A stretch of DNA of 64,000 nt from Haloferax litoreum (GTDB lineage Archaea > Halobacteriota > Halobacteria > Halobacteriales > Haloferacaceae): NCBI RefSeq assembly GCF_009674605.1, contig NZ_WKJO01000002.1, positions 62,001-126,000 on the forward strand, written 5' to 3'. Positions 5,600 through 57,404 of the stretch are shown piece by piece. Made by a program: the position numbers and the translations under genes. Every line of letters starts with the position of its first letter. Within the stretch, counting starts at the first letter, position 1. Below the pieces are notes generated by a model. That model saw only the letters and a program-made list of their open reading frames with translations, did not search any database and was not told the origin of the DNA.

Positions 5600-6471
5600 C
5601 AGCACTGCTCCTTGGCTTCGATCAATTGGGTCAACGTTTCGGTTGCGTACGCACGATCCATCGGACGGACGACGACCTCGTCGACCCCAGAATCTACGAG
5701 GTCACCGAGATACTCTGCGAGGTGAGTTGCGTCTCCGGCGAGATAGTTTGCATCGGAACTCCATCCACGGTACCCGTCTTTGATGAGGTCCTGTGCATGC
5801 TCCTTGGCATCCGCGTCGTTCGGGAGTCCGACGGCATCCAGCCTGACGATGACTGCACCACCCCCTGCCTCCTCGAACCACTGAATCTTCTCTTCGAGCG
5901 TATCGTGGTCTGCAGAAGAACTCACCCATGCGTCGCCAAGCCTACCGGCTCGGCGCACTGCCGGTTCTGCGCTCCCCCCGATACAAATTCGTGCATCTGC
6001 TTTCGGATTCACCGAGACGTCTTCGACTTGATAGTACTTCCCTTCGAACGTCACTTCGTCTTCAGACCATAGACGACGGATGAGTGCTAGCTGTTCTTCG
6101 AATCGCGGTGCACGCTGACGCTTCGGAACCCCGAACGCCCTAAATGCATCGTCGTTGTACCCCAGTGCGCACCAGAAGTCAAATTGTTCGACCATCGCGC
6201 TGAGTGTTCCCGCCTGTTCGGCAACGAGGACTGGGTCGTACATCGGTAAGAGAAACATCGTTGCGACGTGGTCGAACAAGGCGGCGAGACGACCGGACGT
6301 CGGCACATTTTGAAGGTACTGTCCCAAATCGACGACGTGGTGGTCCCCTTTTTCTATGTAGTCGTACCCAAGTTCGTGTGCTGTCTCGGCGAGTTCGAGG
6401 AGTTTCGCCGTGGCATCTCTCGCTGGGAGTTCCCGAGGATAGAAACCAGACGGAGAGTATCCAATCTTCAT
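5599..6471 (-). CDS. LLM-class (luciferase-like) flavin/F420-dependent oxidoreductase
   Basis: A 290-residue TIM-barrel protein of the bacterial luciferase-like family. Typical blocks are 'LLELAETAHELGYDYIEKGDHH' near the start, 'FDFWCALGYNDDAFRAFGV', 'RFEEQLALIRRLWSEDEVTFEGKYY' split by short linkers, and 'CIGGSAEPAVRRAGRLGDAWV'. Haloarchaea make F420, so it may be either an F420-dependent dehydrogenase/reductase or an FMN monooxygenase. The sequence alone does not decide. It overlaps the upstream M29-like gene by 4 bases (ATGA) and the downstream MBL gene by one base, so all three are likely co-translated. Confidence 0.88.
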   Translation of the reverse strand: MKIGYSPSGFYPRELPARDATAKLLELAETAHELGYDYIEKGDHHVVDLGQYLQNVPTSGRLAALFDHVATMFLLPMYDPVLVAEQAGTLSAMVEQFDFWCALGYNDDAFRAFGVPKRQRAPRFEEQLALIRRLWSEDEVTFEGKYYQVEDVSVNPKADARICIGGSAEPAVRRAGRLGDAWVSSSADHDTLEEKIQWFEEAGGGAVIVRLDAVGLPNDADAKEHAQDLIKDGYRGWSSDANYLAGDATHLAEYLGDLVDSGVDEVVVRPMDRAYATETLTQLIEAKEQC

Positions 6472-7469
6472 GCTTCGACCTCGTCGTCGACGAACGAACC
6501 GCTGTCGATGAGTTGTGTTCCGTCGAGGGTGACCGACGCGTCGTTCATGACGAAATCGATGTGTACCGGTGAATCGACGTCTTGTCCATAGATGAGGCCA
6601 TTTCCGATTCCGATGTGGGTTCGCCCTCGCCCTTTCTTCCAGATAGACGTCGACCGTCGGTTTGCGTACGGGTTGATTCCGAACGCAACTTCCGCGAGGT
6701 TTCGAGCATTTTCGTTTTCGTCGAGTGTCGTTTCGAGAGCCGTGACGATTTGTGGGTCGCCGTCGAGGGCTCTGACTTCACCGGATTCGATGACAATCTC
6801 GACTTCGCCGTTAGGCCACCCGTATCCGAGAATCGGTCCGTCAATTACGACAGTTCCCTCTGCTGTCCCGACGACGGGCCCTTGATACACCTCTCCCCAC
6901 CCAATAACAGTGATATCGCCTGGGGTATGTGCCACCGCTGTGCTCATCGAGGGCATTCCGTCGATGTTCGCCACGAGGTCTGTTCCACGCTCGCTCGTCA
7001 CACGAATCTCGGAGGCCGCAGCAACTTGGTCTCTGACCCTCGCACCGAACCGTGTGAGCGCGCCAAAATCGACGTCTAAGACAGTGGGACTCGTGAGGTC
7101 AGAGAACGACCGCTTCGTCATCCCAAGCGCACGTAACTCCTCATCTGCCCGAAGGCCGAGTGGAACGTCGTGGTGCGTGAACGACGCTGATGTCGTCTGA
7201 GTCAGTCCGACTAAAACCGACGCTTCGTGCATCGCCTGAATCACCCCTGGAGGAATCGTTTCGCTATCTCCCGCCGTGTCGTTCATGGTGCAGACGACCA
7301 CTGAATTGGCAAGTTCGGTGCTAAGTCCAGCGAGAGCGTCGATAATCTCTTGACAGTCCTCCGTTGCCGATTCGTCGGCAACGATGAGGACGTCATCTTC
7401 GGCACCGATAGCTAGAAGCTCGACTGCTGCGCGATAGGCGACTCTCGTCGCTTTTCGTGTGCGACCCAT
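6468..7469 (-). CDS. M29-like metalloenzyme (NicX / aminopeptidase superfamily), paralogue 1
   Basis: A 333-residue protein of the M29-type fold, which includes thermophilic aminopeptidases and 2,5-dihydroxypyridine 5,6-dioxygenase (NicX). The C-terminal half has 'LAEVAFGINPYAN', 'RTHIGIGNG' and 'VHIDFVM'. The last contains the HxD pair used as metal ligands in this superfamily. It is shorter than M29 peptidases and close in size to NicX. Given the nitrogen-compound enzymes around it, a ring-opening dioxygenase is possible but unproven. It leads the three-gene minus-strand operon (this gene, LLM, MBL), divergent from the MaoC operon with only 47 bases between starts. A related copy is at 22931-23935. 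Confidence 0.75.
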   Translation of the reverse strand: MGRTRKATRVAYRAAVELLAIGAEDDVLIVADESATEDCQEIIDALAGLSTELANSVVVCTMNDTAGDSETIPPGVIQAMHEASVLVGLTQTTSASFTHHDVPLGLRADEELRALGMTKRSFSDLTSPTVLDVDFGALTRFGARVRDQVAAASEIRVTSERGTDLVANIDGMPSMSTAVAHTPGDITVIGWGEVYQGPVVGTAEGTVVIDGPILGYGWPNGEVEIVIESGEVRALDGDPQIVTALETTLDENENARNLAEVAFGINPYANRRSTSIWKKGRGRTHIGIGNGLIYGQDVDSPVHIDFVMNDASVTLDGTQLIDSGSFVDDEVEA

Positions 7470-7516: not shown

Positions 7517-8077
7517 ATGACAACCACCGACAAGTATTTGCGGATACCACGATTCGAGTACGACAGCATGCCGAGTTATCGCTCTTTGGAGAGTCTTCGA
7601 GACGCTATTGGAACCACGGTTCGAACGGTGGAAGGCCTCTCGATAGATGCGGGGAAAGTAGCGGAGTACGCCGCGGCGACGAGAGACGAAACACCCCTCT
7701 TCGTCGACGAGGACGCCGCGACGACGATGGGTTTCGATGGAATTCCGGCATCACTCATCCACACGATGACTGCGCTCTACGACCACTACCACGTCAATGG
7801 GGGTCCACTCCACGCCATCGACCTCGGTATGGACCGTCGATATTGGGTTCTCGGTGAGCAAGAGTACGAATACCATCGTCATCCGATAGTCGGCGACGTT
7901 CTCACTGGGGAGACGACGCTCGCAGATGTGTACTCCAAACGAGACGGCGAAATGACGTTTGCGGTCCTCGAGACAAACTACGTCGACGAGACGGGTGCGC
8001 TTCTCGTGACAGAACGAAGAACGATGATAGAGACACGCCGCGCAGCAGACGAGAATCGAGGTAAGACCGATGAGTGA
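7517..8077 (+). CDS. MaoC-like N-terminal (FAS1-like) dehydratase domain protein
   Basis: A 186-residue hot-dog-fold protein of the FAS1-like dehydratase type, with blocks 'LSIDAGKVAEYAAATRDETPLFVDEDAA', in short pieces, and 'GFDGIPASLIHTM'. It probably pairs with the MaoC protein encoded next (8-base overlap) to form an enoyl-CoA hydratase, since this half usually lacks the catalytic Asp/His. I start at the ATG at 7517; the ATG at 7568 is an alternative. It is the first gene of a tightly overlapping operon (7517-10100) with MaoC, a thiolase-like protein and a DUF35 protein. That set resembles ChsH2/ChsH1/Ltp2 of steroid side-chain degradation. Confidence 0.78.
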   Translation: MTTTDKYLRIPRFEYDSMPSYRSLESLRDAIGTTVRTVEGLSIDAGKVAEYAAATRDETPLFVDEDAATTMGFDGIPASLIHTMTALYDHYHVNGGPLHAIDLGMDRRYWVLGEQEYEYHRHPIVGDVLTGETTLADVYSKRDGEMTFAVLETNYVDETGALLVTERRTMIETRRAADENRGKTDE

Positions 8078-8513
8078 GACGTGGCCAATCTCGGGTGACG
8101 AGGGAATCGATGTTGGTGATTCAGGGCCAACCATCGTCGTCGAAAATCTGAGACACGAAGATTTCGTTCGCTTCGCCGGGGCGACTGGTGATTTCAACCC
8201 GATGCACTACGACGATACGTATGCACGGGACGCAGGGTTCCGGTCTGCGTTCGGCCCCGGAATGCTCACCGCTTCGTACGGTGCACGCATGGTCTCGAAG
8301 TGGTTCGGCCTCGGGTCCATCGACCGAATCAAATTCCGCTTCACGGATAAAGTGTGTCCGGGAGACACGCTCACAGTCGAGGGCACTGTAGACGAGGTCG
8401 ATGATACACCTGACGGGATGACTGTCCGCGTTTCGTTCGACGTACGAAACCGGCGTGACGTCGTGGTACTCGAGGGCGAATGCGACGCGATAGTCGGAGG
8501 GTCACATGAGTAA
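8070..8513 (+). CDS. MaoC family (R)-specific enoyl-CoA hydratase subunit
   Basis: A 147-residue hot-dog protein. The hydratase signature 'FAGATGDFNPMHYDD' at about residues 35-50 carries the Asp and His used to add water across an enoyl-CoA double bond. It is followed by 'FGPGMLTASYGARM'. It overlaps the preceding MaoC-N gene by 8 bases and the following thiolase-like gene by 8 bases, indicating a co-translated complex. By analogy with ChsH1-ChsH2, it is likely the catalytic half of a hetero-oligomeric hydratase that feeds the beta-hydroxyacyl-CoA product to the next enzyme. Confidence 0.88.
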   Translation: MSETWPISGDEGIDVGDSGPTIVVENLRHEDFVRFAGATGDFNPMHYDDTYARDAGFRSAFGPGMLTASYGARMVSKWFGLGSIDRIKFRFTDKVCPGDTLTVEGTVDEVDDTPDGMTVRVSFDVRNRRDVVVLEGECDAIVGGSHE

Positions 8514-9681
8514 CTCCGTCTACATCGCCGGGGCGTTCGAACATCCAACCCGCGAGGCACCGGACAAGTCGGCGATGCAACTACACGCAGAAGTTGCCCG
8601 TGGTGCACTTGCCGATGCAGGGCTTCCAAAGTCACGAGTAAACGGGTTTGCGACGGCCGGAATCCCCGAGTACAAACATACGTTCAAAGGGCCGATGATG
8701 ATGGCTGATTACCTCGGCCTACGTGGTGTGTCGTGGGCAGAAAACACCGACGACGGGGGTGGTGCACAGTTGACGCACATGGCCCACGCCGTGAGTGCAA
8801 TTCGAGACGGTAAATGCGACGTCGTCTTGATAACTCTCGGTGGGAGGCCACGCTCACGCGCCCAGAACACGGGAACTGGGGGGACTGCTGGGACGACGAT
8901 GCAGGATAATTTCGAACACATCCATGGCAACACTGTCATCACCCGGTATGCGATGGTTGCGAAACGGCACATGCACGAGTACGGGACGACACCACTCCAG
9001 TTTGGAGCGATCCGTGAGGCGGTCTCGTATCACGCCCAGTTCAACGACGACGCACTCTACCCGGACCCCGTGACGGCACAAGACGTCGTGAACTCTCGGA
9101 CGATTAGCGACCCCATTCACCTGCTCGACTGTTGTGTCATCTCAGACGGCGGCGCTGCTGTGGTGTTGGTCTCATCGGACGTCGCAGACGAATTGGCCCG
9201 CGAGTGTGTCGAGATAATCGGGTGTGGTGAGTCGATAACGCATCACGACGCCGGTCGAATGAATATCCTCGAAACCGGTGCCCGTGAGTCAGGAGATAGT
9301 GCATTCGACGAGGCTGGAATCAGCCGTAGTGACGTCGACTACGCTTCGTTGTACGACTCGTTCACTGTCACGGTTCTCTTGGAGTTAGAGGACCTCGGCT
9401 TTTGTGAGAAAGGCGCTGGTGGCGAATTCGCTGAATCCGGTGCGTTGAAAGCACCCGATGGTGAGTTACCCGTCAACACCGATGGTGGCGGGCTCTGTTC
9501 GAACCAACCAGCAAATAAGGGTGGATTGACCAAAGTCGTCGAGGCAGTTCGGCAACTTCGTGGCGAAACAGCACCCGAAGTCCAGATTCCCAACGCGCGA
9601 TACGCCATCGCACATGGGATGGGTGGCGACTTCGTCACTCGTGAGAAGCACACGACGCTTCTGCTGGAGGCCCCCAGATGA
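8506..9681 (+). CDS. Thiolase-superfamily protein lacking thiolase catalytic residues (Ltp2/SCP2-like aldolase candidate)
   Basis: A 391-residue SCP2-type thiolase-fold protein. At the place of the thiolase nucleophile Cys the sequence is NTDDGGGAQ (residues 80-88), with no Cys. The 'GHPxGATG' motif is replaced by 'CSNQPANKGG' (331-340), so the catalytic His is lost. The C-terminal Cys-x-Gly position reads 'HGMGGD'. 'YDSFTVTV' (283-290) matches the conserved Tyr region of Ltp2-type retro-aldolases. The MaoC pair upstream and DUF35 downstream strengthen the aldolase reading: cleavage of a beta-hydroxyacyl-CoA to a carbonyl compound and a short acyl-CoA. Alternatives are a structural or acyl-transfer role. 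Confidence 0.85.
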   Translation: MSNSVYIAGAFEHPTREAPDKSAMQLHAEVARGALADAGLPKSRVNGFATAGIPEYKHTFKGPMMMADYLGLRGVSWAENTDDGGGAQLTHMAHAVSAIRDGKCDVVLITLGGRPRSRAQNTGTGGTAGTTMQDNFEHIHGNTVITRYAMVAKRHMHEYGTTPLQFGAIREAVSYHAQFNDDALYPDPVTAQDVVNSRTISDPIHLLDCCVISDGGAAVVLVSSDVADELARECVEIIGCGESITHHDAGRMNILETGARESGDSAFDEAGISRSDVDYASLYDSFTVTVLLELEDLGFCEKGAGGEFAESGALKAPDGELPVNTDGGGLCSNQPANKGGLTKVVEAVRQLRGETAPEVQIPNARYAIAHGMGGDFVTREKHTTLLLEAPR

Positions 9682-10100
9682 CTGTTCCCGAACAGTGGGA
9701 GCCGCGAGAGACGCCGGAGGTCGACCCGGAGACGGCCCCGTTTTGGCGAGCAGCGGCCGACGGAACGCTTCTCTTGTACGAGTGTGACGACTGTGGGTTA
9801 GTGTTCTACTACCCGAGGGCGTTCTGTCCGGACGATTTCTCGCCGAACGTCTCGCCGAAACCGGCGACTGGAACCGGTCGAGTGTACACGTACGCGACAA
9901 CCGATGTCGTCAGTGAGTGGCCGAGCGACGACCTCCCGATGGTCTCTGCTATCGTCGAACTCGACGAGGGCCCGCGGATGCTAACGACGCTGGTCGACTG
10001 TGACGCAGATTCCATCGCTATCGACGACCGGGTGGAAGTTGTCTTCGTTCCCACTGACGACGAGGACGTTGCAATCCCGGTGTTCAGACCGACTGATTGA
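9678..10100 (+). CDS. DUF35 (Zn-ribbon / OB-fold) protein
   Basis: A 140-residue protein with 'PFWRAAADGTLLLYECDDCG' at the N-terminus (rubredoxin-like CxxC), then a single Cys in 'AFCPDD' and an OB-fold tail. The usual fourth zinc ligand of the ribbon is absent (CPDD instead of CPxC), so zinc may be bound incompletely or lost. DUF35 proteins are obligate partners of SCP2-type thiolases and Ltp2-type aldolases. The ATGA overlap with the thiolase-like gene at 9678 fits a 1:1 complex. It is the last gene of the operon; the amidase at 10186 has its own weak promoter signal. Confidence 0.88.
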   Translation: MTVPEQWEPRETPEVDPETAPFWRAAADGTLLLYECDDCGLVFYYPRAFCPDDFSPNVSPKPATGTGRVYTYATTDVVSEWPSDDLPMVSAIVELDEGPRMLTTLVDCDADSIAIDDRVEVVFVPTDDEDVAIPVFRPTD

Positions 10101-22490: not shown

Positions 22491-22934
22491 TCAGTCGCGA
22501 AGAACGGTCACGACTGGACGGGTCGAGTTGAGGAGTACCGACTGGGTTGTGCTTCCGAAAAATGCCTTCCCTGTTGGTGAGCGTCTTCTGGCTCCGATGA
22601 CGACGTAACGGGCGTCGACCGAATCGGCAGCACGGATGATTCTGTCTGCTGGGTCTCCGACGCGGCCCATTCCCGAGACACCGTCGAACGGCTCGTCGAG
22701 GGACTCTTTAGCAACTTGCTCGGCAAAGTCCGCTATCGAGTCCTCTTCTTGGATCACAGAGTAATCTTTGAACTCGTCGATAGTCTGGAGTTCTGCTTGG
22801 TGTTTTTCGAACTCCGATTCTGGTGCCACGTGAAGGACGACGAGTTCGTCGCCGTACGCAGACGCGAGGTCGTACCCCTGTCGGACGACTTCACTCGGGA
22901 TGTTTTTTCCTGTCGTCGCTGCCAGAACCGTCAT
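22491..22934 (-). CDS. Universal stress protein (UspA family)
   Basis: A 147-residue single UspA domain. It has 'MTVLAATTGKNIPSE' at the N-terminus and an ATP-type loop near residue 115, 'VIGARRRSPTGKAFFGSTTQS', which fits G-2x-G-9x-G[ST]. Its ATG overlaps the stop of the M29-like gene upstream (ATGA), so the two are coupled. The role in the island is unknown; Usp proteins often act as stress or nucleotide sensors. Confidence 0.9.
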   Translation of the reverse strand: MTVLAATTGKNIPSEVVRQGYDLASAYGDELVVLHVAPESEFEKHQAELQTIDEFKDYSVIQEEDSIADFAEQVAKESLDEPFDGVSGMGRVGDPADRIIRAADSVDARYVVIGARRRSPTGKAFFGSTTQSVLLNSTRPVVTVLRD

Positions 22935-23935
22935 CGTTCTTCGACCTCCGAAGCACGTTCGAATACTAATTCGGTGTCGAGAGCGCCATCGCGCACGATG
23001 GTGACCCCGTCGACCTCGACTGTGGGATGGGCGAGGACGCCGTCGAGGTGGATAGAACTTCGAACAGTTCCTCCAATTCCCCGGTTATCTCCAACAGCGA
23101 AGTGGACGGACCCTTGGACCTTCTTGTCCTCAGCGAGGTTTCCGATGAACCTCGCATCCGGGTTCGTCCCGATGGCGAACTCGGCGATATTGCCCGCGTT
23201 CTCGTCTGCATTTTCGAGGATGTGCCTGAGTTCGTCGGCCTCGGCCCCCCCCGAGACGTCGGTGACGACTCCGTCAGTGACTGTGAGGGTAATCGGTGTC
23301 TCGAGTTGTCCGATGTTGTCCATCGACGCGTCGATGACGATTGTCCCGTTTGTCGTCCCCTCGGCAGGTGATGTCGGCGCTTCACCTGTTGGAATCGCCG
23401 CTGCTGCTCGCCCATCGTCGTAGAAACGGCCATCGAGTACATAGGACCCTCGACCGGTGAGGTCCATCGTGACGTCGGTCCCCGCTTTTGATGTCACACG
23501 CGCCGTGTTCGCCTCGCGGAGGACCGTGCTGACTGCGGTGGTGACCCGGGTCAACTCCTCGTAATCGGTGTTGATGCCTCCTTCGAGCATCATCTCGGTC
23601 GTCACACCACGGAGAATGTAGGTCCGGGTGCCGACTGTTGCGGACGCTTGTCGAGCATCTGAGTGGGTCAGTGCTTTGGTCGTCACCGCGAAGACGATGT
23701 CGGCCGCTTTCATCGCCTCTGCGATGGTTGCCGGTGGTTCGTTGCCGTGTGCTTCTGCACGAGGCATCACGGAAAGCACTGTCTGTCCACCTGCTGCCCG
23801 AGCAGCGACTGCAAGCGGCGTCGCGACGTCCATCATCTCTGCATCAGTCACGACCAACACTTCTTCGTCAGGCTCTACTTCGGCCATATCTTCGACGATT
23901 GTCCGCGAGATGGCACTCAGTTCGAATGCTAACAT
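22931..23935 (-). CDS. M29-like metalloenzyme (NicX / aminopeptidase superfamily), paralogue 2
   Basis: A 334-residue relative of the protein at 6468-7469, with the same length. Conserved blocks are 'IAEFAIGTNPDARF', 'SVHFAVGDNRGIGG' and 'SIHLDGVL' (HxD metal pair). NicX-type enzymes of similar size open 2,5-dihydroxypyridine, while M29 peptidases are longer. The substrate is not known. A clear TATA box (23960-23967) and the ATGA-coupled UspA gene form a two-gene unit. Two divergent copies in one island suggest two related substrates or a hetero-oligomer. Confidence 0.75.
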   Translation of the reverse strand: MLAFELSAISRTIVEDMAEVEPDEEVLVVTDAEMMDVATPLAVAARAAGGQTVLSVMPRAEAHGNEPPATIAEAMKAADIVFAVTTKALTHSDARQASATVGTRTYILRGVTTEMMLEGGINTDYEELTRVTTAVSTVLREANTARVTSKAGTDVTMDLTGRGSYVLDGRFYDDGRAAAAIPTGEAPTSPAEGTTNGTIVIDASMDNIGQLETPITLTVTDGVVTDVSGGAEADELRHILENADENAGNIAEFAIGTNPDARFIGNLAEDKKVQGSVHFAVGDNRGIGGTVRSSIHLDGVLAHPTVEVDGVTIVRDGALDTELVFERASEVEER

Positions 23936-25686: not shown

Positions 25687-26361
25687 ATGGACGGCATTCA
25701 CGACATGGGTGGGATGCACGGTTTCGGGGCTGTCCCAACGTCGGACGACGTGCAATTCCACGCGCAATGGGAGCGGGAAACCTACGCGATGATGAAACTA
25801 CTCGGTATGCAAGGGCAATTCAATACCCATCAGATGCGTGCGACTGTTGAACGGATGGCCCCCAAAGTCTACCTCGAATCGACGTACTTCGAACGATGGC
25901 TCACTGGAATCGAGGACCGACTCCTCGAAGACGGTGTTCTCTCACAGGAAGAGCTTCGAGAGGCACACTCGACTGTGTCAGATGGCACGAAGACCCAGCG
26001 CAGTGACGACGACCTCGTCAGCCTCGTCCGAGAACGATTCTCCGCGGACGCGTTCTCGAACCAAACTGAAATCGACCCGCGCTTCGAGGAGGGTGACTCA
26101 GTCGTCGCGAAAAATTCCCACCCCTTCGGTCACACCCGTCTTCCCGGCTACGTTCGCCGCGCTCGGGGGTCCATCCGGAAGTATCTCGGCACCTTCCACC
26201 TGCCGGACGCTGCAGCAAGGGGTGACACGTCCGTCACAGAACCGATGTACTCGGTAGGGTTCGATGCGGCGGAGTTGTGGGGCGACGATGCCGAGGGGAA
26301 CGGAACTATCTACATAGACCTGTTCGAGAGCTACCTCGAATCTCCTGAGAGCAACGATTAA
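25687..26361 (+). CDS. nthB: Nitrile hydratase beta subunit
   Basis: A 224-residue protein opening with the hallmark 'MDGIHDMGGMHGFGAVP'. It contains 'FHAQWERETYAMMKLLG', 'YLESTYFERWLTGIEDRL', 'FEEGDSVVAKNSHPFGHTRLPGYVRR' in pieces, and the C-terminal 'FDAAELWGDDAEG'. Nitrile hydratase adds water to a nitrile to give an amide. The order beta, alpha, accessory is that of cobalt-type enzymes. The alpha gene starts 30 bases downstream. Nitrile hydratases are uncommon in archaea, so this operon is likely acquired from bacteria, though its codon use now matches the host. Confidence 0.95.
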   Translation: MDGIHDMGGMHGFGAVPTSDDVQFHAQWERETYAMMKLLGMQGQFNTHQMRATVERMAPKVYLESTYFERWLTGIEDRLLEDGVLSQEELREAHSTVSDGTKTQRSDDDLVSLVRERFSADAFSNQTEIDPRFEEGDSVVAKNSHPFGHTRLPGYVRRARGSIRKYLGTFHLPDAAARGDTSVTEPMYSVGFDAAELWGDDAEGNGTIYIDLFESYLESPESND

Positions 26362-26391
26362 CCCCTGTGTCTCCGTATCTCTGTGCGTTCC

Positions 26392-27129
26392 ATGACGAAC
26401 GAAGGACCCAACGGCGAGAGTGACGTACCTCTTGGAGAGGAGTCAGGTGAGGAATCCCATTCACACTCCCCCGACCAGCGTGACGAACCTCACGACTCCC
26501 ACGACCATTCTCACGACCACCACCACACACATCACCACTCGGCCGAAGGTGACCCGAACGACCCCAAAGAGCGAGCACGGGCGCTCCAGTCGTTACTCGT
26601 CGAGAAAGGCCTCGTCTCGACCGCAGCAGTCGACGAGGTCATCGCGAAGTACGAACACGACATCGGGCCGATGAACGGCGCACGGGTCGTCGCGAAGGCG
26701 TGGGTGGACCCGGAGTTCAAAGAGAGATTGCTGGCCGACGCGACCACCGCCATCGCGGACGAGTTCGACTTCGAATTAGGCGACCACCACACCGAAGTCG
26801 TCGAGAACACGAGTGAGGTCCACAACGTCATCGTCTGTACCCTCTGCTCGTGTTATCCGTGGTTCCTCCTCGGACTCCCCCCGTCGTGGTACAAGTCACC
26901 CGAGTATCGGTCTCGACTCGTCCGCGAACCACGTGCAGTCCTCTCTGAGTTCGGGCTAGACCTCTCCAAGTCGGTCGAAGTCGCCGTCTGGGACTCGACG
27001 TCTGACTTTCGGTACATGGTCTTGCCGGAACGCCCGGTGGGTACCGAGGACCTGAACGAGACGGAACTCGCCGAACTCGTCACTCGAGATTCGATGGTCG
27101 GTGTCGAAACCTTGGAGGCGCAGTCGTGA
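26392..27129 (+). CDS. nthA: Nitrile hydratase alpha subunit with His-rich N-terminal leader
   Basis: A 245-residue subunit. The metal-binding claw is C149-T-L-C152-S-C154. Thr at the second position is typical of cobalt-type enzymes (iron-type have Ser). Downstream '[21 protein letters not shown]' and '[12 protein letters not shown]' are conserved. Residues 20-50 form an extra acidic leader with 12 histidines, absent from ordinary bacterial alpha subunits. I start at the ATG at 26392; a GTG at 26383 is also in frame. The accessory gene overlaps its stop by 4 bases. Together with nthB it converts a nitrile to the amide, which the two amidases could hydrolyse. Confidence 0.95.
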
Positions 27130-32229: not shown

Positions 32230-33951
32230 TCATAGCTCCGCAACGTTGACGTCGACGACGGTCGGCCCGTCGGTTTGGACTGCTTCTGCAAGTGTATCGC
32301 GGAGACTGTCTCTATCGTCGATACGGAATCCCGCAACCCCAAAGCTCTCCGCGTTCGAGACGTAGTCTACCGACGGTGTCAGGCCTGCCCATTCGAAGTC
32401 GAAATCAGCCTCGTCGCCACCGAGCATGTTCATCGAGTTCTTCTTCAAGATTCGATAGCTTCCGTTGTTGAAAACCACGATGGTCACGTTGAGGTCGTAC
32501 CGTGCGGCTGAGAAGAGTGCGTGTGGATAGTAGAGGAACGACCCGTCACCGATTAGTCCAACGACAGGTCGGTGGTCATCGTCAGCAGCCGCGACTGCGA
32601 GTGCAGCGCCGAGTGCCGCGGGGAGACCATACCCTAAGCCCCCGCCCTTATTCGACACTCGTTGGTTTGGTTGGAGTGGCCACCGCGAGAGAAGTGGACC
32701 TTTTGCTGTCACACTCTCGTCGACGAGATACGCGTCGGGGGCAAGTTCACGGAGTACTTCGACGACTGCCCCTACACGGACGTTGGTGTGTGCACTGGTA
32801 TCTAACGTCACCTGTGTGTCCGGTATCTCTTCCGGCGGACTGACGTCTCGTTTCATCGCTGTTGCGTCTGCCTTGGCACGCGCCGTCCGCGCTTCGTGGA
32901 CTGACTCTTCGAGTTCCGACTCGACGCGTTCGGAGAGTTCACTGAGGACGAGTTTCGGGTCACCGAGTATCGAGGCGTCGGCAGGTTCGTTCTTCCCGAG
33001 TTGCCACGCATCTTCGCTCACGTGGACGAATTTGGTCTCTGGGGATACGAGCGGGGCCTCGTGCCGGACTGCAGTCGTATTCGTCGAGCAGCCGACGAGC
33101 ACGACCGTGTCGGTGTCGAGAGCCGCTGCAACCTCCGCTTCGTTAGTGGAGAGGTACCCTGCCCATGCCGGATGGTCGGCCGGAAAGTTGACTTCACACG
33201 ACAGAATCTCTCCGTGGACGCGTGCTCCCGACGCCTCGGCGAATGCAATCGCTTCTTCGCTGGCGGCGGCCTGACTGACACCGTCTCCAAAGACCACAAC
33301 CGGGTCCGTCGCTTCGACGAGAATCTGTGTTGCCCGGTCGACGTCAGCAGGCGAGCCTGTTCCCGGGGTTGGAACCGACCCAAGCCGTTCGACAGTCGCG
33401 TCTGTCGATGCGAGCATCACGTCGAGGGGAAGAGAGAGGAAGACCGGTCCTGTAGGTGGGGTGAGTGCGACACGGAATGCACGTCTGAGCATCGTCGGCA
33501 TCGAGTCCACGTGTCGCACCTCTGCGGACCACTTGACGACCGACTCTGCGAGTGGTGGCAGTTCTCCGTGAAGGATTGGCTCTTCGTGACGGAAATCGGT
33601 ACTGTGTGCCCCTGCAGTCACCACGAGTGGGACGTTGCCCGCCTTTGCGGCGTACACGTTTCCCAGTCCGTGCAGCAGGCCCGGTGCCAAGTGGAGGTTC
33701 ACTACCCCAATCGGTAGCTCTCCCCCGTCCTCTCGGAACGAATGGTACCGAGATTTCGCGTATCCTGCGGCCATTCCGACTGCGACGTCTTCGTGAAGTG
33801 CCAACACGTACTCCACGTTGCTATTGGTCACAGAGTTCATCAGTGGGAGTTCTGTCGTTCCCGGGTTCCCGAAGAGAGCCGACACCCCGTAGGAGTCTAG
33901 TATCTCCACGAATAGGTCTGCACCACTTCGACGGTGAGTAGCACTGCTCAT
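32230..33951 (-). CDS. ThDP-dependent enzyme, benzoylformate-decarboxylase-like
   Basis: A 573-residue thiamine-diphosphate enzyme with three domains. The N-terminal 'LFGNPGTTELPLM' resembles the benzoylformate decarboxylase motif NPGSNELPF, with Thr in place of the BFD active-site Ser. 'LHEDVAVGMAAGYAK' carries the catalytic Glu. The C-terminal ThDP motif starts 'GDGSFLYYPHALFSAARYD' and ends 'NNGSYRILK'. It probably decarboxylates a 2-oxo acid or ligates aldehydes; acetolactate-synthase-type roles are less likely given the motif. Substrate unknown. TATA-like GTTAAATAC at 33977-33985. Confidence 0.88.
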   Translation of the reverse strand: MSSATHRRSGADLFVEILDSYGVSALFGNPGTTELPLMNSVTNSNVEYVLALHEDVAVGMAAGYAKSRYHSFREDGGELPIGVVNLHLAPGLLHGLGNVYAAKAGNVPLVVTAGAHSTDFRHEEPILHGELPPLAESVVKWSAEVRHVDSMPTMLRRAFRVALTPPTGPVFLSLPLDVMLASTDATVERLGSVPTPGTGSPADVDRATQILVEATDPVVVFGDGVSQAAASEEAIAFAEASGARVHGEILSCEVNFPADHPAWAGYLSTNEAEVAAALDTDTVVLVGCSTNTTAVRHEAPLVSPETKFVHVSEDAWQLGKNEPADASILGDPKLVLSELSERVESELEESVHEARTARAKADATAMKRDVSPPEEIPDTQVTLDTSAHTNVRVGAVVEVLRELAPDAYLVDESVTAKGPLLSRWPLQPNQRVSNKGGGLGYGLPAALGAALAVAAADDDHRPVVGLIGDGSFLYYPHALFSAARYDLNVTIVVFNNGSYRILKKNSMNMLGGDEADFDFEWAGLTPSVDYVSNAESFGVAGFRIDDRDSLRDTLAEAVQTDGPTVVDVNVAEL

Positions 33952-34068: not shown

Positions 34069-35346
34069 GTGACTTCCCGTGACAGTCCTCCACCACCAGA
34101 ACATAACCCTGATAGAGCATCACCACCGAATAACGGTCCACGCTACGTCGTCGGAAGTATCGCTCTCGGTGTGTTCTTTGGTGGGCTCGGTGGTGGAGTC
34201 GCGTTCCCGACGCTCCCGAAACTGGGCCTGATTCTCGGAATCTCACCGTTCGTCGTGAGCGTTATCCTCTCGACGAACCGGTTTACGCGTCTCGTGATGA
34301 ACGCTCCTGCCGGACAACTCCTCGATAGAATCGGAGCGAGACGCCCGATGGTTGCTGGATTTTTTATTCAAGGGTTGGCCCCGTTTGGGTACATTCTCGG
34401 ACTACACACCGACTCGCTCCCACTGGTGGTGTCGCCAACTACCGTGTTCATCGTCTCGAGGATGCTGTGGGGAATTGGATCGGCGTTCGTTCTAGTCGGG
34501 GCGTTTTCGATGGTGACGCACATTACGACGACGGCTAACCGTGGTCGGTGGACTGGCGTGATGCGGGGCGCACAGACCTTGGGATTCCCTGCGGGTCTCG
34601 CTACTGGTGGTGTGTTGACGGACCTTTATGGGTACGATGCTGCGTTTTTTCTCGCTGGTTGTGCGGGAATGCTCTCTGGTATCGTTGCGCTGTTCGCAGT
34701 TCCGAACGTCGACGCGTCGGTCAAATCTCGTGGGGGTGTTCGGACTGCGATTCGACTCGCAACGGGCGATAGGCGAATCTTGACCGTCGGGAGTGTGAAC
34801 TTCGTCGTCAGGTTTCTCTACGCTGGGGTTCTCCTCTCGACTATCGTTCTCGCCACGGCTGAACGGGGGTTAACGTTCGGTGCACTCAGTGAGGCTGGTG
34901 TCAGCGGTGTCGTGATGGCTATCAGTGTCTTGTTCGCCAGTACGTCTACCCTTCTCGCGGGAGAATACTCCGACGGTGTGTCCAATCGGGCATTGGTCAC
35001 TCTCCCGTCTCTCGTTCTCTTTGGTGTGGGATTTGTCATCCTTGCCCTATTCCCCACTGTCTCCGGCACTGTTGTCGGTGTTGCACTCATCGGATTCGGA
35101 GTCGGTGGAACGAACCCGCCGTTACTCGCATATCTTGGTGATATCAGTCCGGAAGGCGACATCGGGAAGATGACGGGTATGTACAACGTCTTCGGTGATT
35201 TGGGGTCGACGTTAGGGCCTCTCGTTGCACTTCCACTCGCGGCTGTAATCGGGTACGATATCACCTATCTCGGGTGTGTGCTGCTCGTGGCTGTCATCGG
35301 TATCCTAGTCGGGTATGGTCTCCTCTCTGGGCCATCTACCATGTGA
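34069..35346 (+). CDS. MFS transporter
   Basis: A 425-residue, 12-helix protein with 'GQLLDRIGARRPMV' (the DxxGxR loop motif) and 'GEYSDGVSNRALV' in the second half. The GTG at 34069 is used as start; the first 25 residues are Pro/Ser-rich and cytoplasmic. It is not close to the MFS protein at 24413. It may import the island's substrate or export a metabolite. Its position between the ThDP enzyme and the isochorismatase gives no substrate. Confidence 0.88.
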   Translation: MTSRDSPPPPEHNPDRASPPNNGPRYVVGSIALGVFFGGLGGGVAFPTLPKLGLILGISPFVVSVILSTNRFTRLVMNAPAGQLLDRIGARRPMVAGFFIQGLAPFGYILGLHTDSLPLVVSPTTVFIVSRMLWGIGSAFVLVGAFSMVTHITTTANRGRWTGVMRGAQTLGFPAGLATGGVLTDLYGYDAAFFLAGCAGMLSGIVALFAVPNVDASVKSRGGVRTAIRLATGDRRILTVGSVNFVVRFLYAGVLLSTIVLATAERGLTFGALSEAGVSGVVMAISVLFASTSTLLAGEYSDGVSNRALVTLPSLVLFGVGFVILALFPTVSGTVVGVALIGFGVGGTNPPLLAYLGDISPEGDIGKMTGMYNVFGDLGSTLGPLVALPLAAVIGYDITYLGCVLLVAVIGILVGYGLLSGPSTM

Positions 35347-36144: not shown

Positions 36145-36960
36145 ATGGCCAGGTACAACACCATCGAGCTAGCGGTAGATGACCGTGACGTTGCGACGTT
36201 GACATTCGACCGACCCGAGAAGCGGAACGCGATGAGCCCCGAGTTGCTCGAAGAAGTCGGTGATGCACTCGAAACCATTCGTGGCGACGTTCGAGCGCTC
36301 GTCATCGAAGGGAACGGCCCTTCGTTTAACGCAGGGATGGATTTCGAGAAGTACTTCACTGAACTTCGAAAGAAAGACCCACTACTCGTAAAAGAGGCCA
36401 ACTTCATCCATGGCCGTGCTCTCAACCGAATCAAGGACTTCCCCGCACCCACGATTGCGAAAGTTCATGGTTGGGCACTTGGTGGCGGCTACATGGTGAT
36501 GGCGGTCTGTGATATCGCGTTCGCCGCGACAGATGCCAAATTCGGGTTCTCAGAGATAAACTTCGGCATCGCTGCTGGAGGTGGAACTATGTGGGCAGCC
36601 GCTCACACGCTCTCCAGACGTGATGCAATGTACTACACGATGACAGGGGAGCCGTTCGATGGGGTCGAAGCCGAGCGGATGGGTGCTGTGAACAAATCTG
36701 TGCCCCCCGAGGAGTTGGACGACGAAGTCGACCGATTCGTCGAGAAATTACTCGAGAAAAATGCGCTCGCGTTAGAGTATTCAAAGGATTACTACGACCA
36801 CGCCCGCCGGATGACGTACCGAGAGTCTCACGACTACGAGTTAGCAAAGGGCGAGGAGATGAAGTACTTCCAACGACAGGAGTTCTTCACCGAAGGAGTC
36901 GGTCAGTTCATGGAAGACAAGTACAAGCCGGGCACCGGAGAAGCCTACGAAAAAGAGTAA
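36145..36960 (+). CDS. Enoyl-CoA hydratase/isomerase family protein (crotonase)
   Basis: A 271-residue crotonase-fold enzyme with 'TFDRPEKRNAMSPELLEEV', oxyanion-hole regions 'GPSFNAGMDF' and 'KVHGWALGGGYMV', and 'FGFSEINFGIAAGGGTMWA'. The last region replaces the usual catalytic Glu block and reads Gly-rich. It resembles feruloyl-CoA hydratase/lyase and related aromatic side-chain enzymes in the 'GWALGGGYMVMAVCDIAFA' and 'SEINFGI' blocks, where a retro-aldol step releases an aldehyde. A plain enoyl-CoA hydratase cannot be excluded. It is the last gene of the catabolic island. Confidence 0.9.
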   Translation: MARYNTIELAVDDRDVATLTFDRPEKRNAMSPELLEEVGDALETIRGDVRALVIEGNGPSFNAGMDFEKYFTELRKKDPLLVKEANFIHGRALNRIKDFPAPTIAKVHGWALGGGYMVMAVCDIAFAATDAKFGFSEINFGIAAGGGTMWAAAHTLSRRDAMYYTMTGEPFDGVEAERMGAVNKSVPPEELDDEVDRFVEKLLEKNALALEYSKDYYDHARRMTYRESHDYELAKGEEMKYFQRQEFFTEGVGQFMEDKYKPGTGEAYEKE

Positions 36961-55385: not shown

Positions 55386-56237
55386 TTAGGGACAATCGCT
55401 CCCTTCACGCGAAATAGCGAGGTCTCGTTCCACGTTGTGAACGACGCACTTGATGACGAGTTCGCGGAACTGCTTCCACCAGCGGCGTGACCGCACGAAG
55501 GCACCGAATTTCTGTTTGATTGCCGCGTTGACCGTCTCGTTCATGTTACGCTGATGGTAGAGATCGCCGTCCAGCCGTGCATTCCATGCTTTGTGGAGTG
55601 AGGTGAACTCACGATGCTTGATGAGCGGTCGAATATCGTTGTCACGGGCGAGCCGCCGGAGTTTTTGATCGTCGTAGCCCTTGTCACCGGTCAAGACTTC
55701 GATGGACTGTGCGTTCCGTTTCACTACCTGTGGCGCAATTTGCGTATCGTGCTTCCGCGTTGTCGTCACGTGAATATCGAGAACCGCATTGGTCGCCGTA
55801 TCGACCAACAGCGTCGTCTTCAACTGTTGGATGGTGAGGTTCGTTCGCTTCGTGTAGTGAGTTGATGCATGAGCCCGCTCGAATCCGGACGCATCGATGC
55901 CGATGACACCGTTCAGCGGCAAGTTCGAAAGTGAAACGTTCAGCAGAATCCGCCAGACGGCCATTTCCAAGCGGTCGAACGGCTTTCAGAGTGTCGAGGG
56001 TGCTGGAATCGAATCGAGATCGAGGGCGTCACGAATGCGAGGCATCTCGATGAGTTCATCAACGAGGTCGCGGTACGTGGTCGTCTTTTTCACCTTGAGA
56101 CAGAGAAGCACGACGTGCTGGCGGAGCGTGAACCGCTTCCGTGAATATCGAGTCGAAAACCGTGCAACAGCACGGCGAGCCAGCACCAGAGCCCGTTCAA
56201 CGAAACGGAGAATGCGTGACTTCGGCAGGGAATCCAT
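55386..56237 (-). pseudogene. IS5-family transposase, interrupted by one in-frame TGA
   Basis: The DDE transposase reads in a single frame from ATG 56237 to 55386 (283 codons) except for a TGA at 55986-55988. 'IGIDASGFERAHASTHYTKR', 'LTGDKGYDDQKLRR' and 'MNETVNAAIKQKFG' (here in parts) supply the D, D and E regions. No frameshift is present, so one base change would restore the protein. The last residues (AISREGSDCP) look unlike family C-termini, so the 3' end may be altered. The right inverted repeat lies 38 bases upstream of its start. Confidence 0.8.
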
Positions 56238-56274
56238 CCTATCTCAGACTACTCGTCCATCATGTTTGCCAGCA

Positions 56275-56291
56275 AGGGTTTCAACAAGGCC
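56275..56291 (-). repeat. 17-bp inverted repeat, right copy (IS end)
   Basis: AGGGTTTCAACAAGGCC, the exact reverse complement of 54065-54081. It lies just upstream of the IS5-type transposase start, the normal place for the right terminus of such an element. Confidence 0.6.
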
Positions 56292-56352
56292 AACTCAACA
56301 CATTCGCCAGTCGTTATGATCGGTGCGTAGTCCATCTCATCAGTACCAGCTT

Positions 56353-57404
56353 TCAACAGAAGTCAGTGAGCCGCCAGATATTGTATAAGAGGACAGCAAT
56401 CACGAAGTAGAACAACCGAACTCGATAATCCTTCGACGAGGTCTTCGCGAGGAAATCATGCTTGATGCTCTTGTATTCGTTTTCAATCTGCCAGCGACTG
56501 CTGTAGCGCCGACAGAACGATTCGGCTTCCTCTGGTGTAACACGAGCATTCGTCGCAAAGACAGTTGTCCCATCTGTTTTCGTCGAGGGAACGTACAGAA
56601 ACTGCATCGCGTGCGAGCCCTGCTCGACGTGGACAGACGGTGACTCGACGGCGGCCTCTTGGCCGTCCTGCTCCATCTGCTCAATCGCTTTGCGCTCTGA
56701 GCTCGTGGTCCGTTTAGGAATCAGGTAGTTCACGCCAAGGTTCGAGAGCGTCTGAAACACCCGCATCGAGTCGAACTCTCGGTCGCACAGCACCATCTCG
56801 ATAGGGACGTGTTCCTTCGCTTGATGAACTAATCGCCGGACAACACGGTGAATCCGATTCGGTGGGTTGTTGTCCCACGCTGAACTTTCACGAACTGGTT
56901 CGACAGCCAAAACGAGAGGAATACTCTGGCCGACAATCGAGAGGGTAGCAAACTTAAACGCACGCCCGTCGCCGTCTTTTGTCCCGCTGACCATCGACAT
57001 TCCTTCGACATTACCGAAGTAGGGAACAGTCGTAATGTCGAGCGCGACGGTCACTGGCCGCCGAAATGAGACTTCAGACTCGATTACTGAGAGGAGTCGG
57101 TCGGTAGCAGTCTGGAAGCCATCAAAGAATGATTCGCCATCGAACTGTTTGACTGCCCGGAGGTGCGTATCACCGTGCGGGCCGTATTCTTTGCCACGTC
57201 AGTACTGAAAGCGTGATGCGCCTTGGGCAGTCCCGCAGCCAACCATGCCCATGAACGTCTGTAACTCGAAGAATCGAGAATCATCATACGACGAGTTGTC
57301 TGCTCTGCCAGACTCAAATGGGCTGAAGCAATATTCTCGTGCTAATCGAGTTTCTGTCCCGAGTGCGGCTCAGAGCTCAAGTCAACCAGAAATGTAGATT
57401 GCAT
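56353..57404 (-). pseudogene. IS4-type transposase, broken by a stop and a frameshift
   Basis: The C-terminal 233 residues are intact: 'VALDITTVPYFGNVEGM', 'MVLCDREFDSMRVFQTL', 'RYSSRWQIENEYKSIK' and 'RLFYFVIAVLLYNIWRLTDF', the DDE and Y-R-W-x-IE blocks of IS4/ISH-type enzymes. Upstream in the same frame follows 'EYGPHGDTHLRAVKQFDGE', then a TGA near 57200, then 'FFELQTFMGMVG' and 'TRLAREYCFSPFESGR'. Near 57345-57365 the frame shifts to reach an ATG at 57404 ('MQSTFLVDLSSE'). So at least two lesions inactivate it. Confidence 0.75.

Follow-up and report, generated by a model that had tools for sequence, protein, structure and literature searches.

Thiolase-fold proteins that act as aldolases on coenzyme A (CoA) esters are already known from bacterial steroid breakdown. 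Ltp2 of Thermomonospora curvata (TcLtp2) has a YDHF motif plus a second catalytic residue, Tyr344, and works through two tyrosines (residues as given in PMC12329534). Sal of Comamonas testosteroni (CtSal) has a YDCY motif whose Cys304 is essential, the C304S variant being inactive, and with Gly at the position of the thiolase Cys it is incapable of thiolysis (PMC12329534). A stretch of 64 kb from the haloarchaeon Haloferax litoreum (the window in what follows), part of a contig of 322 kb in a genome of 3.56 Mb, carries four + strand genes at 7517-10100 that encode two MaoC proteins, a thiolase-fold protein (THL) and a DUF35 protein. They probably form an operon that couples a hydratase to a thiolase-fold retro-aldolase in the breakdown of CoA thioesters, a system of the kind just described, with a YDSF active-site type that is a variant of it. 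Successive genes overlap by 8, 8 and 4 bp, and their coordinates and families are those given in a preliminary description of the locus:

MaoC1, 7517-8077, + strand: HadA/ChsH2-like hot-dog subunit without the catalytic His (TRDETPLF); Pfam FAS1_DH_region, 2e-19
MaoC2, 8070-8513, + strand: hot-dog hydratase subunit with an Asp/His dyad in TGDFNPMH; Pfam MaoC_dehydratas, 1.8e-19
THL, 8506-9681, + strand: Gly85, Tyr283-Asp-Ser285-Phe and Gln334, putative retro-aldolase; Pfam Thiolase_C_1, NCBIfam NF006010/PRK08142
DUF35, 9678-10100, + strand: zinc-ribbon/OB-fold protein of the ChsH2 C-terminal type; Pfam zf-ChsH2, 9.6e-11, and OB_ChsH2_C, 1.2e-17

Residues 80-88 of THL read NTDDGGGAQ and, as had been noticed at the outset, include no Cys. 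In the alignment it is Gly85 that stands where thiolases have their nucleophilic Cys, a residue kept in three paralogues of the same genome (L002-L004). Gly occupies this position in 95 of 95 bacterial and haloarchaeal relatives and in 59 of 59 haloarchaeal sequences, two sets that overlap. Since the His of the thiolase HPxGATG site is replaced as well, THL has neither of the residues expected of a thiolase (EC 2.3.1.9/16). The final Cys-x-Gly is also absent, as had been pointed out, but its absence is not diagnostic and is dropped as evidence because the Cys-bearing thiolase paralogues of this genome lack it too, as does 7yvy. The possibility that THL is a thiolase with its nucleophilic Cys elsewhere was considered and is rejected on the alignment, its probability being very small. 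THL does have several Cys, of which C300 is invariant and C210 nearly invariant among the relatives, and databases label these relatives thiolase. However, no YDSF relative has a Cys at the nucleophile position, C331 is replaced by Ser in 24 of the 59 haloarchaeal sequences, and equivalents of both C210 and C300 are present in TcLtp2 with its two catalytic tyrosines; in CtSal, moreover, Gly at the Cys position precludes thiolysis (PMC12329534).

The YDSF motif is found in all 95 relatives and in 58 of the 59 haloarchaeal sequences. The exception is a THL paralogue (L174, 1118-2227) with YDCF and without the HP His, which is Sal/SLP-like and also adjoins a DUF35 gene. Tyr283 has as its counterparts Tyr302 of CtSal and Tyr294 of TcLtp2, each of which serves its enzyme as catalytic base (PMC12329534). 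That the Tyr region of Ltp2 is kept thus holds for the Tyr itself but not for the motif that the preliminary description ascribed to Ltp2, which has YDHF where the third residue here is Ser. At the site of HPxGATG the relatives have NHPxNRGG, with the His present in 94 of 95 and 58 of 59 sequences, while the window copy has Gln334, aligned with Gln352 of CtSal; the reported lack of this site is accordingly a property of the window copy rather more than of the family. The segment QPANKGG, which aligns at the position of Ltp2 Tyr344, has no Tyr.

The best solved relatives of THL by phmmer are 4u4e, 9myr (CtSal) and 6ok1 (TcLtp2). An AlphaFold model of THL, built on an alignment of 33 sequences, has a mean predicted local distance difference test score (pLDDT) of 85.9, with low confidence around residues 331-340, and Foldseek places it nearest to the same three (4u4e first at 4e-36, CtSal at 5e-34, TcLtp2 at 2e-31), with true thiolases ranking after them all. 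Maximum-likelihood phylogeny unites the YDSF proteins in a single clade (100/96) that leaves TcLtp2 and CtSal outside, and the window THL is sister to a Natrarchaeobius protein (98/98); deeper branching order is unsure because the branches are long. Membership of the Ltp2 or Sal family is excluded by the motif, by the second acid residue and by the tree. THL scores 490 bits against NF006010 (PRK08142), where the curated cut-off is 462, and so passes into a subfamily that has no named function. Judged by its sequence, THL would function like the Ltp2 and Sal aldolases yet belongs to neither family, its place being in a separate, largely bacterial clade (PRK08142). A genuine steroid side-chain aldolase complex in an archaeon is the least probable of the readings weighed here: the fold and the component logic are common to ChsH1-ChsH2-Ltp2 and Shy-Sal, but the clade is a separate one and the annotated neighbours of the operon include no recognisable gene for breakdown of the steroid ring.

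The two MaoC proteins have the pattern of the heterodimeric MaoC hydratases HadAB and ChsH1-ChsH2, in which one subunit has the catalytic dyad and the other lacks the His. The Asp and His are present in the TGDFNPMH motif of MaoC2, and MaoC1 has Phe at the His position, as do its relatives with a readable motif if Tyr and Leu are counted with it (F/Y/L in all). ChsH2 is likewise without the catalytic His (PMC11321319). The same division holds for a further 14 haloarchaeal loci (L122-L135), where every readable motif of the first domain is without the His and the second domain has both the acidic residue and the His; the two domains share one open frame in 12 of these loci. With an AlphaFold model of MaoC1 (pLDDT 74) the top match is HadA (1.9e-11), and ChsH1-ChsH2 (4w78) comes at rank 19. 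The best Protein Data Bank (PDB) relatives of MaoC2 include HadB catalytic subunits. The pair is therefore closer to HadA/HadB than to ChsH1/ChsH2, with which the preliminary description had allied it. MaoC1 is presumably the non-catalytic, substrate-binding partner of MaoC2.

The DUF35 protein matches 6ok1_B (phmmer, 1.4e-13), and its adjacency to THL gives the operon the zf-ChsH2 plus OB_ChsH2_C partner expected of a DUF35-bound thiolase-fold protein. Its zinc ligands are C36, C39 and C50, the fourth Cys being replaced by Asp53 in a column that is Cys in 74 of 96 sequences. Some DUF35 proteins of bacterial relatives also have zinc Cys replaced, in a C..T..S..T pattern, so the partner may be able to do without zinc. 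Taken as a whole, the ChsH2-ChsH1-Ltp2 logic first proposed for the locus survives in the aldolase-like placement of THL, the DUF35 partner and the inert/catalytic MaoC pair; it does not extend to close kinship, THL being outside the Ltp2 and Sal branches and without Tyr344 and the His of YDHF.

THL is paired with DUF35 in nearly all of the relatives' loci. MaoC, THL and DUF35 genes are contiguous on the same strand in L180 and L190, and the junctions in L180 overlap or abut depending on the choice of start codon. After the DUF35 gene of L180 there is a weak match to methylmalonyl-CoA epimerase (64.9 bits, cut-off 115), which hints at propionyl-CoA there. In the sister locus (L022) both MaoC genes are about 4 kb off, and a nitrilase, an ADP-forming acyl-CoA ligase and an aldehyde dehydrogenase lie within the same 21 kb. 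A second haloarchaeal clade, THLb (PRK06158), is about 40-43% identical to the window THL, and in 18 of 20 haloarchaeal loci THLb-DUF35b directly adjoins a MaoC1-MaoC2 unit, encoded as one open frame wherever this was checked. Where THLb-DUF35b occurs with a HadA/HadB-like MaoC unit (L125, L129-L131, L193-L206) a major facilitator superfamily (MFS) transporter is nearby in every case, 43-45% identical to the product of window 34069-35346. PRK08142-type genes above the cut-off are present in 5 of the 393 genomes of a phylum sample, and a THL relative at E <= 1e-60 in 41 of the 392 genomes of the order. In the loci listed, most bacterial matches come from Alphaproteobacteria; clustering of the bacterial neighbourhoods was confused by antisense open reading frames (ORFs) and is given little weight. 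In a search of a plasmid collection with IpfD, the Rhizorhabdus match proved to be plasmid pUPO218, with another THL-DUF35 pair and not the ipf genes. The genes, the fold, the absence of the nucleophile, the inert/catalytic MaoC pattern and the recurrent linkage are directly established.

From here we infer a heterodimer, a complex, a reaction with its direction, roles for individual residues and a class of substrate. MaoC1, binding the acyl part, and MaoC2, with its Asp/His dyad, would form a heterodimer of the HadAB/ChsH1-ChsH2 type and hydrate an alpha,beta-enoyl-CoA. DUF35 would hold THL, as in Ltp2-ChsH2 and Sal-Shy. Tyr283 may then deprotonate the beta-hydroxyl of the resulting beta-hydroxyacyl-CoA, with the beta-oxygen held by backbone groups around Gly84-Gly85, and cleavage of the Calpha-Cbeta bond would give an aldehyde or ketone and acetyl- or propionyl-CoA. 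In most YDSF relatives the likely proton donor to the enolate is the His of the HP motif, the place of which is taken in the window THL by Gln334. Tentatively, then, and with the balance somewhat against so broad a claim, the YDSF proteins (PRK08142/PRK06158, 4u4e) might be a mechanistic class of their own, the third among thiolase-fold CoA aldolases after Ltp2 (YDHF/Tyr) and Sal (YDCY/Cys), using a recycled HP His as proton donor, present in bacteria and haloarchaea and acting on non-steroid substrates; the window copy with its His to Gln change would be a further variant of this class.

Several points weigh against a coupled hydratase and retro-aldolase. No report was found in the literature of a measured activity for any YDSF protein, in any organism. 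The C304S change of CtSal creates a YDS motif and an inactive enzyme, so the acid of YDSF enzymes must be a different residue. The exact order MaoC1-MaoC2-THL-DUF35 was seen in none of the other loci examined, the MaoC gene and THL-DUF35 are on opposite strands in the THLb loci, and many relatives have a nearby crotonase, or no detected hydratase, in place of the MaoC pair. Finally, the window THL, having neither the Cys of Sal, nor Tyr344 of Ltp2, nor the His of its own family, and with 11 of 101 near-invariant columns changed, might be impaired.

This last point leads to the chief rival, that the window THL is a decaying or already inactive member of a retro-aldolase family, drifting after the loss of its acid residue; it is unlikely, though less so than any other alternative. 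The 11 deviations compare with a median of 1 among 143 other sequences, and in Tajima relative-rate counts against the sister (64:32) the window THL has about twice as much change. H334Q is found in the window THL alone among the YDSF relatives sampled, and the neighbouring products share in the losses, DUF35 of a zinc Cys and MaoC1 of a near-invariant His. Against decay, the four frames are open and still overlap, Tyr283, Gly84-85 and the MaoC2 dyad are intact, and CtSal naturally has Gln at the equivalent of position 334. Moreover, the change in the window THL amounts to 13% where columns are at least 95% conserved and to 78% where they are variable, and so constraint on it persists. With Gln334 in place of the HP His the active site has been remodelled, and we read the window THL, on the pattern of its substitutions, as a remodelled enzyme. 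A closer orthologue with Gln334 was sought in 392 genomes of the order and in plasmids, and none above 64% identity turned up. The natural His to Gln variant would offer a direct handle on which residue protonates the enolate.

The neighbourhood bears on a further alternative, a Cys-independent carbon-carbon reaction of another sort on an acyl-CoA, either decarboxylation of a malonyl-type CoA or a forward aldol condensation. Slow decarboxylation of malonyl-CoA is on record for the SCP2-thiolase-like TbSLP (cited in PMC12329534) and the HadAB relatives of the MaoC pair are biosynthetic, but no such decarboxylation was seen with CtSal (PMC12329534) and the surroundings are catabolic (IclR, acyl-CoA dehydrogenase and acyl-CoA ligase here, the aldehyde dehydrogenase and ADP-forming ligase of L022); such a reaction is improbable, a little more so than decay. 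For the coupled hydratase and retro-aldolase the best reading of the substrate is a non-steroid acyl-CoA in a nitrile/amide/aromatic catabolic cluster. Besides the IclR regulator and the two acyl-CoA enzymes, the window encodes a flavin reductase, a luciferase-like monooxygenase (LLM)-type oxidoreductase, two amidases, a nitrile hydratase, a benzoylformate-decarboxylase-like thiamine pyrophosphate (TPP) enzyme and a protein like hydroxycinnamoyl-CoA hydratase/lyase. Relatives of IclR, acyl-CoA dehydrogenase and MmgE recur next to THL in other haloarchaea, and the TPP enzyme (32230-33951) recurs at 49% identity in L138 (14367-16046) and L207 (15550-16992), within about 7 kb of THL-DUF35 in both. 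A guess at the route would be nitrile to amide to acid to acyl-CoA to enoyl-CoA to hydroxyacyl-CoA and so to aldehyde or ketone and acetyl- or propionyl-CoA. The genome has six aldehyde dehydrogenases, none in the window, the nearest being about 3 kb past its end.

Other features of the cluster merit mention. The nitrile hydratase beta and alpha genes (25687-27129) specify a VCTLCSC metal motif, which we take to be of the cobalt type, and the alpha family is present in 32 of 293 genomes of the order. A crotonase (36145-36960) closely resembles p-hydroxycinnamoyl-CoA hydratase/lyase (274.8 bits, cut-off 276) and is possibly a second retro-aldol enzyme of the cluster. There are two divergent M29-like proteins (6468-7469 and 22931-23935); considered as NicX-type dioxygenases, the first is below and the second above the Pfam M29 cut-off, and the first has no PDB match. 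Downstream of the cluster are ORFs that look transposase-like on reading their translations (55386-57054).

Many genomes have THL-DUF35 pairs annotated as thiolase or acetyltransferase that are incapable of thiolysis by the known mechanism. Should these be aldolases, the beta-oxidation steps predicted for bacteria and haloarchaea would in many cases be wrongly assigned, and there would then also be a non-steroid, CoA-dependent route of side-chain cleavage in archaea.

The described systems differ in how far they parallel the window operon. Ltp2 with ChsH1-ChsH2 (T. curvata, 6ok1, and M. tuberculosis) has the same fold without the nucleophilic Cys, the Tyr of YDxF, a DUF35 partner and, like the window pair, one inert and one catalytic MaoC domain. 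It has YDHF where the window has YDSF, DUF35 is fused to ChsH2 there and free here, and the window THL is on a separate branch without Tyr344 and with no steroid context recognised nearby. Sal-Shy (9myr) resembles the window system in the Gly at the Cys position, the catalytic Tyr, Q352 as the counterpart of Q334 and a three-Cys DUF35 zinc site. In contrast to the window, Sal has YDCY, its essential Cys304 corresponding to Ser285 and its Gln347 to a Gly, the position of its Gln161 is not Gln here, and in Shy a homodimeric MaoC is fused to DUF35 and a different zinc ligand is changed. The HadAB/HadBC dehydratases, which act on acyl carrier protein (ACP)-bound chains in mycolic acid synthesis, are the nearest solved relatives of MaoC1 and among the nearest of MaoC2, and are likewise heterodimers of an inert and a catalytic subunit; unlike these, acting on ACP-bound chains, the window pair is in a catabolic CoA cluster. 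The archaeal complex of acetoacetyl-CoA thiolase, DUF35 and 3-hydroxy-3-methylglutaryl-CoA (HMG-CoA) synthase (6esq) has an archaeal thiolase-fold protein held by DUF35, as proposed here, but with a true thiolase and in the mevalonate pathway. In ibuprofen degradation the partner of IpfD, IpfE, is a DUF35 protein. The thiolase-like IpfD, encoded with this partner, is credited with splitting propionyl-CoA off a non-steroid CoA ester by a retro-aldol reaction (PMC9195938), but the preceding step is that of a ring dioxygenase and not a MaoC hydratase, and the parallel is drawn from the described roles. Nearest of all the solved structures is 4u4e, a putative thiolase of Sphaerobacter thermophilus without an assigned function, which with the PRK08142/PRK06158 proteins shares the YDSF clade and the Gly at the Cys position; in contrast to the window THL, these proteins keep the HP His.

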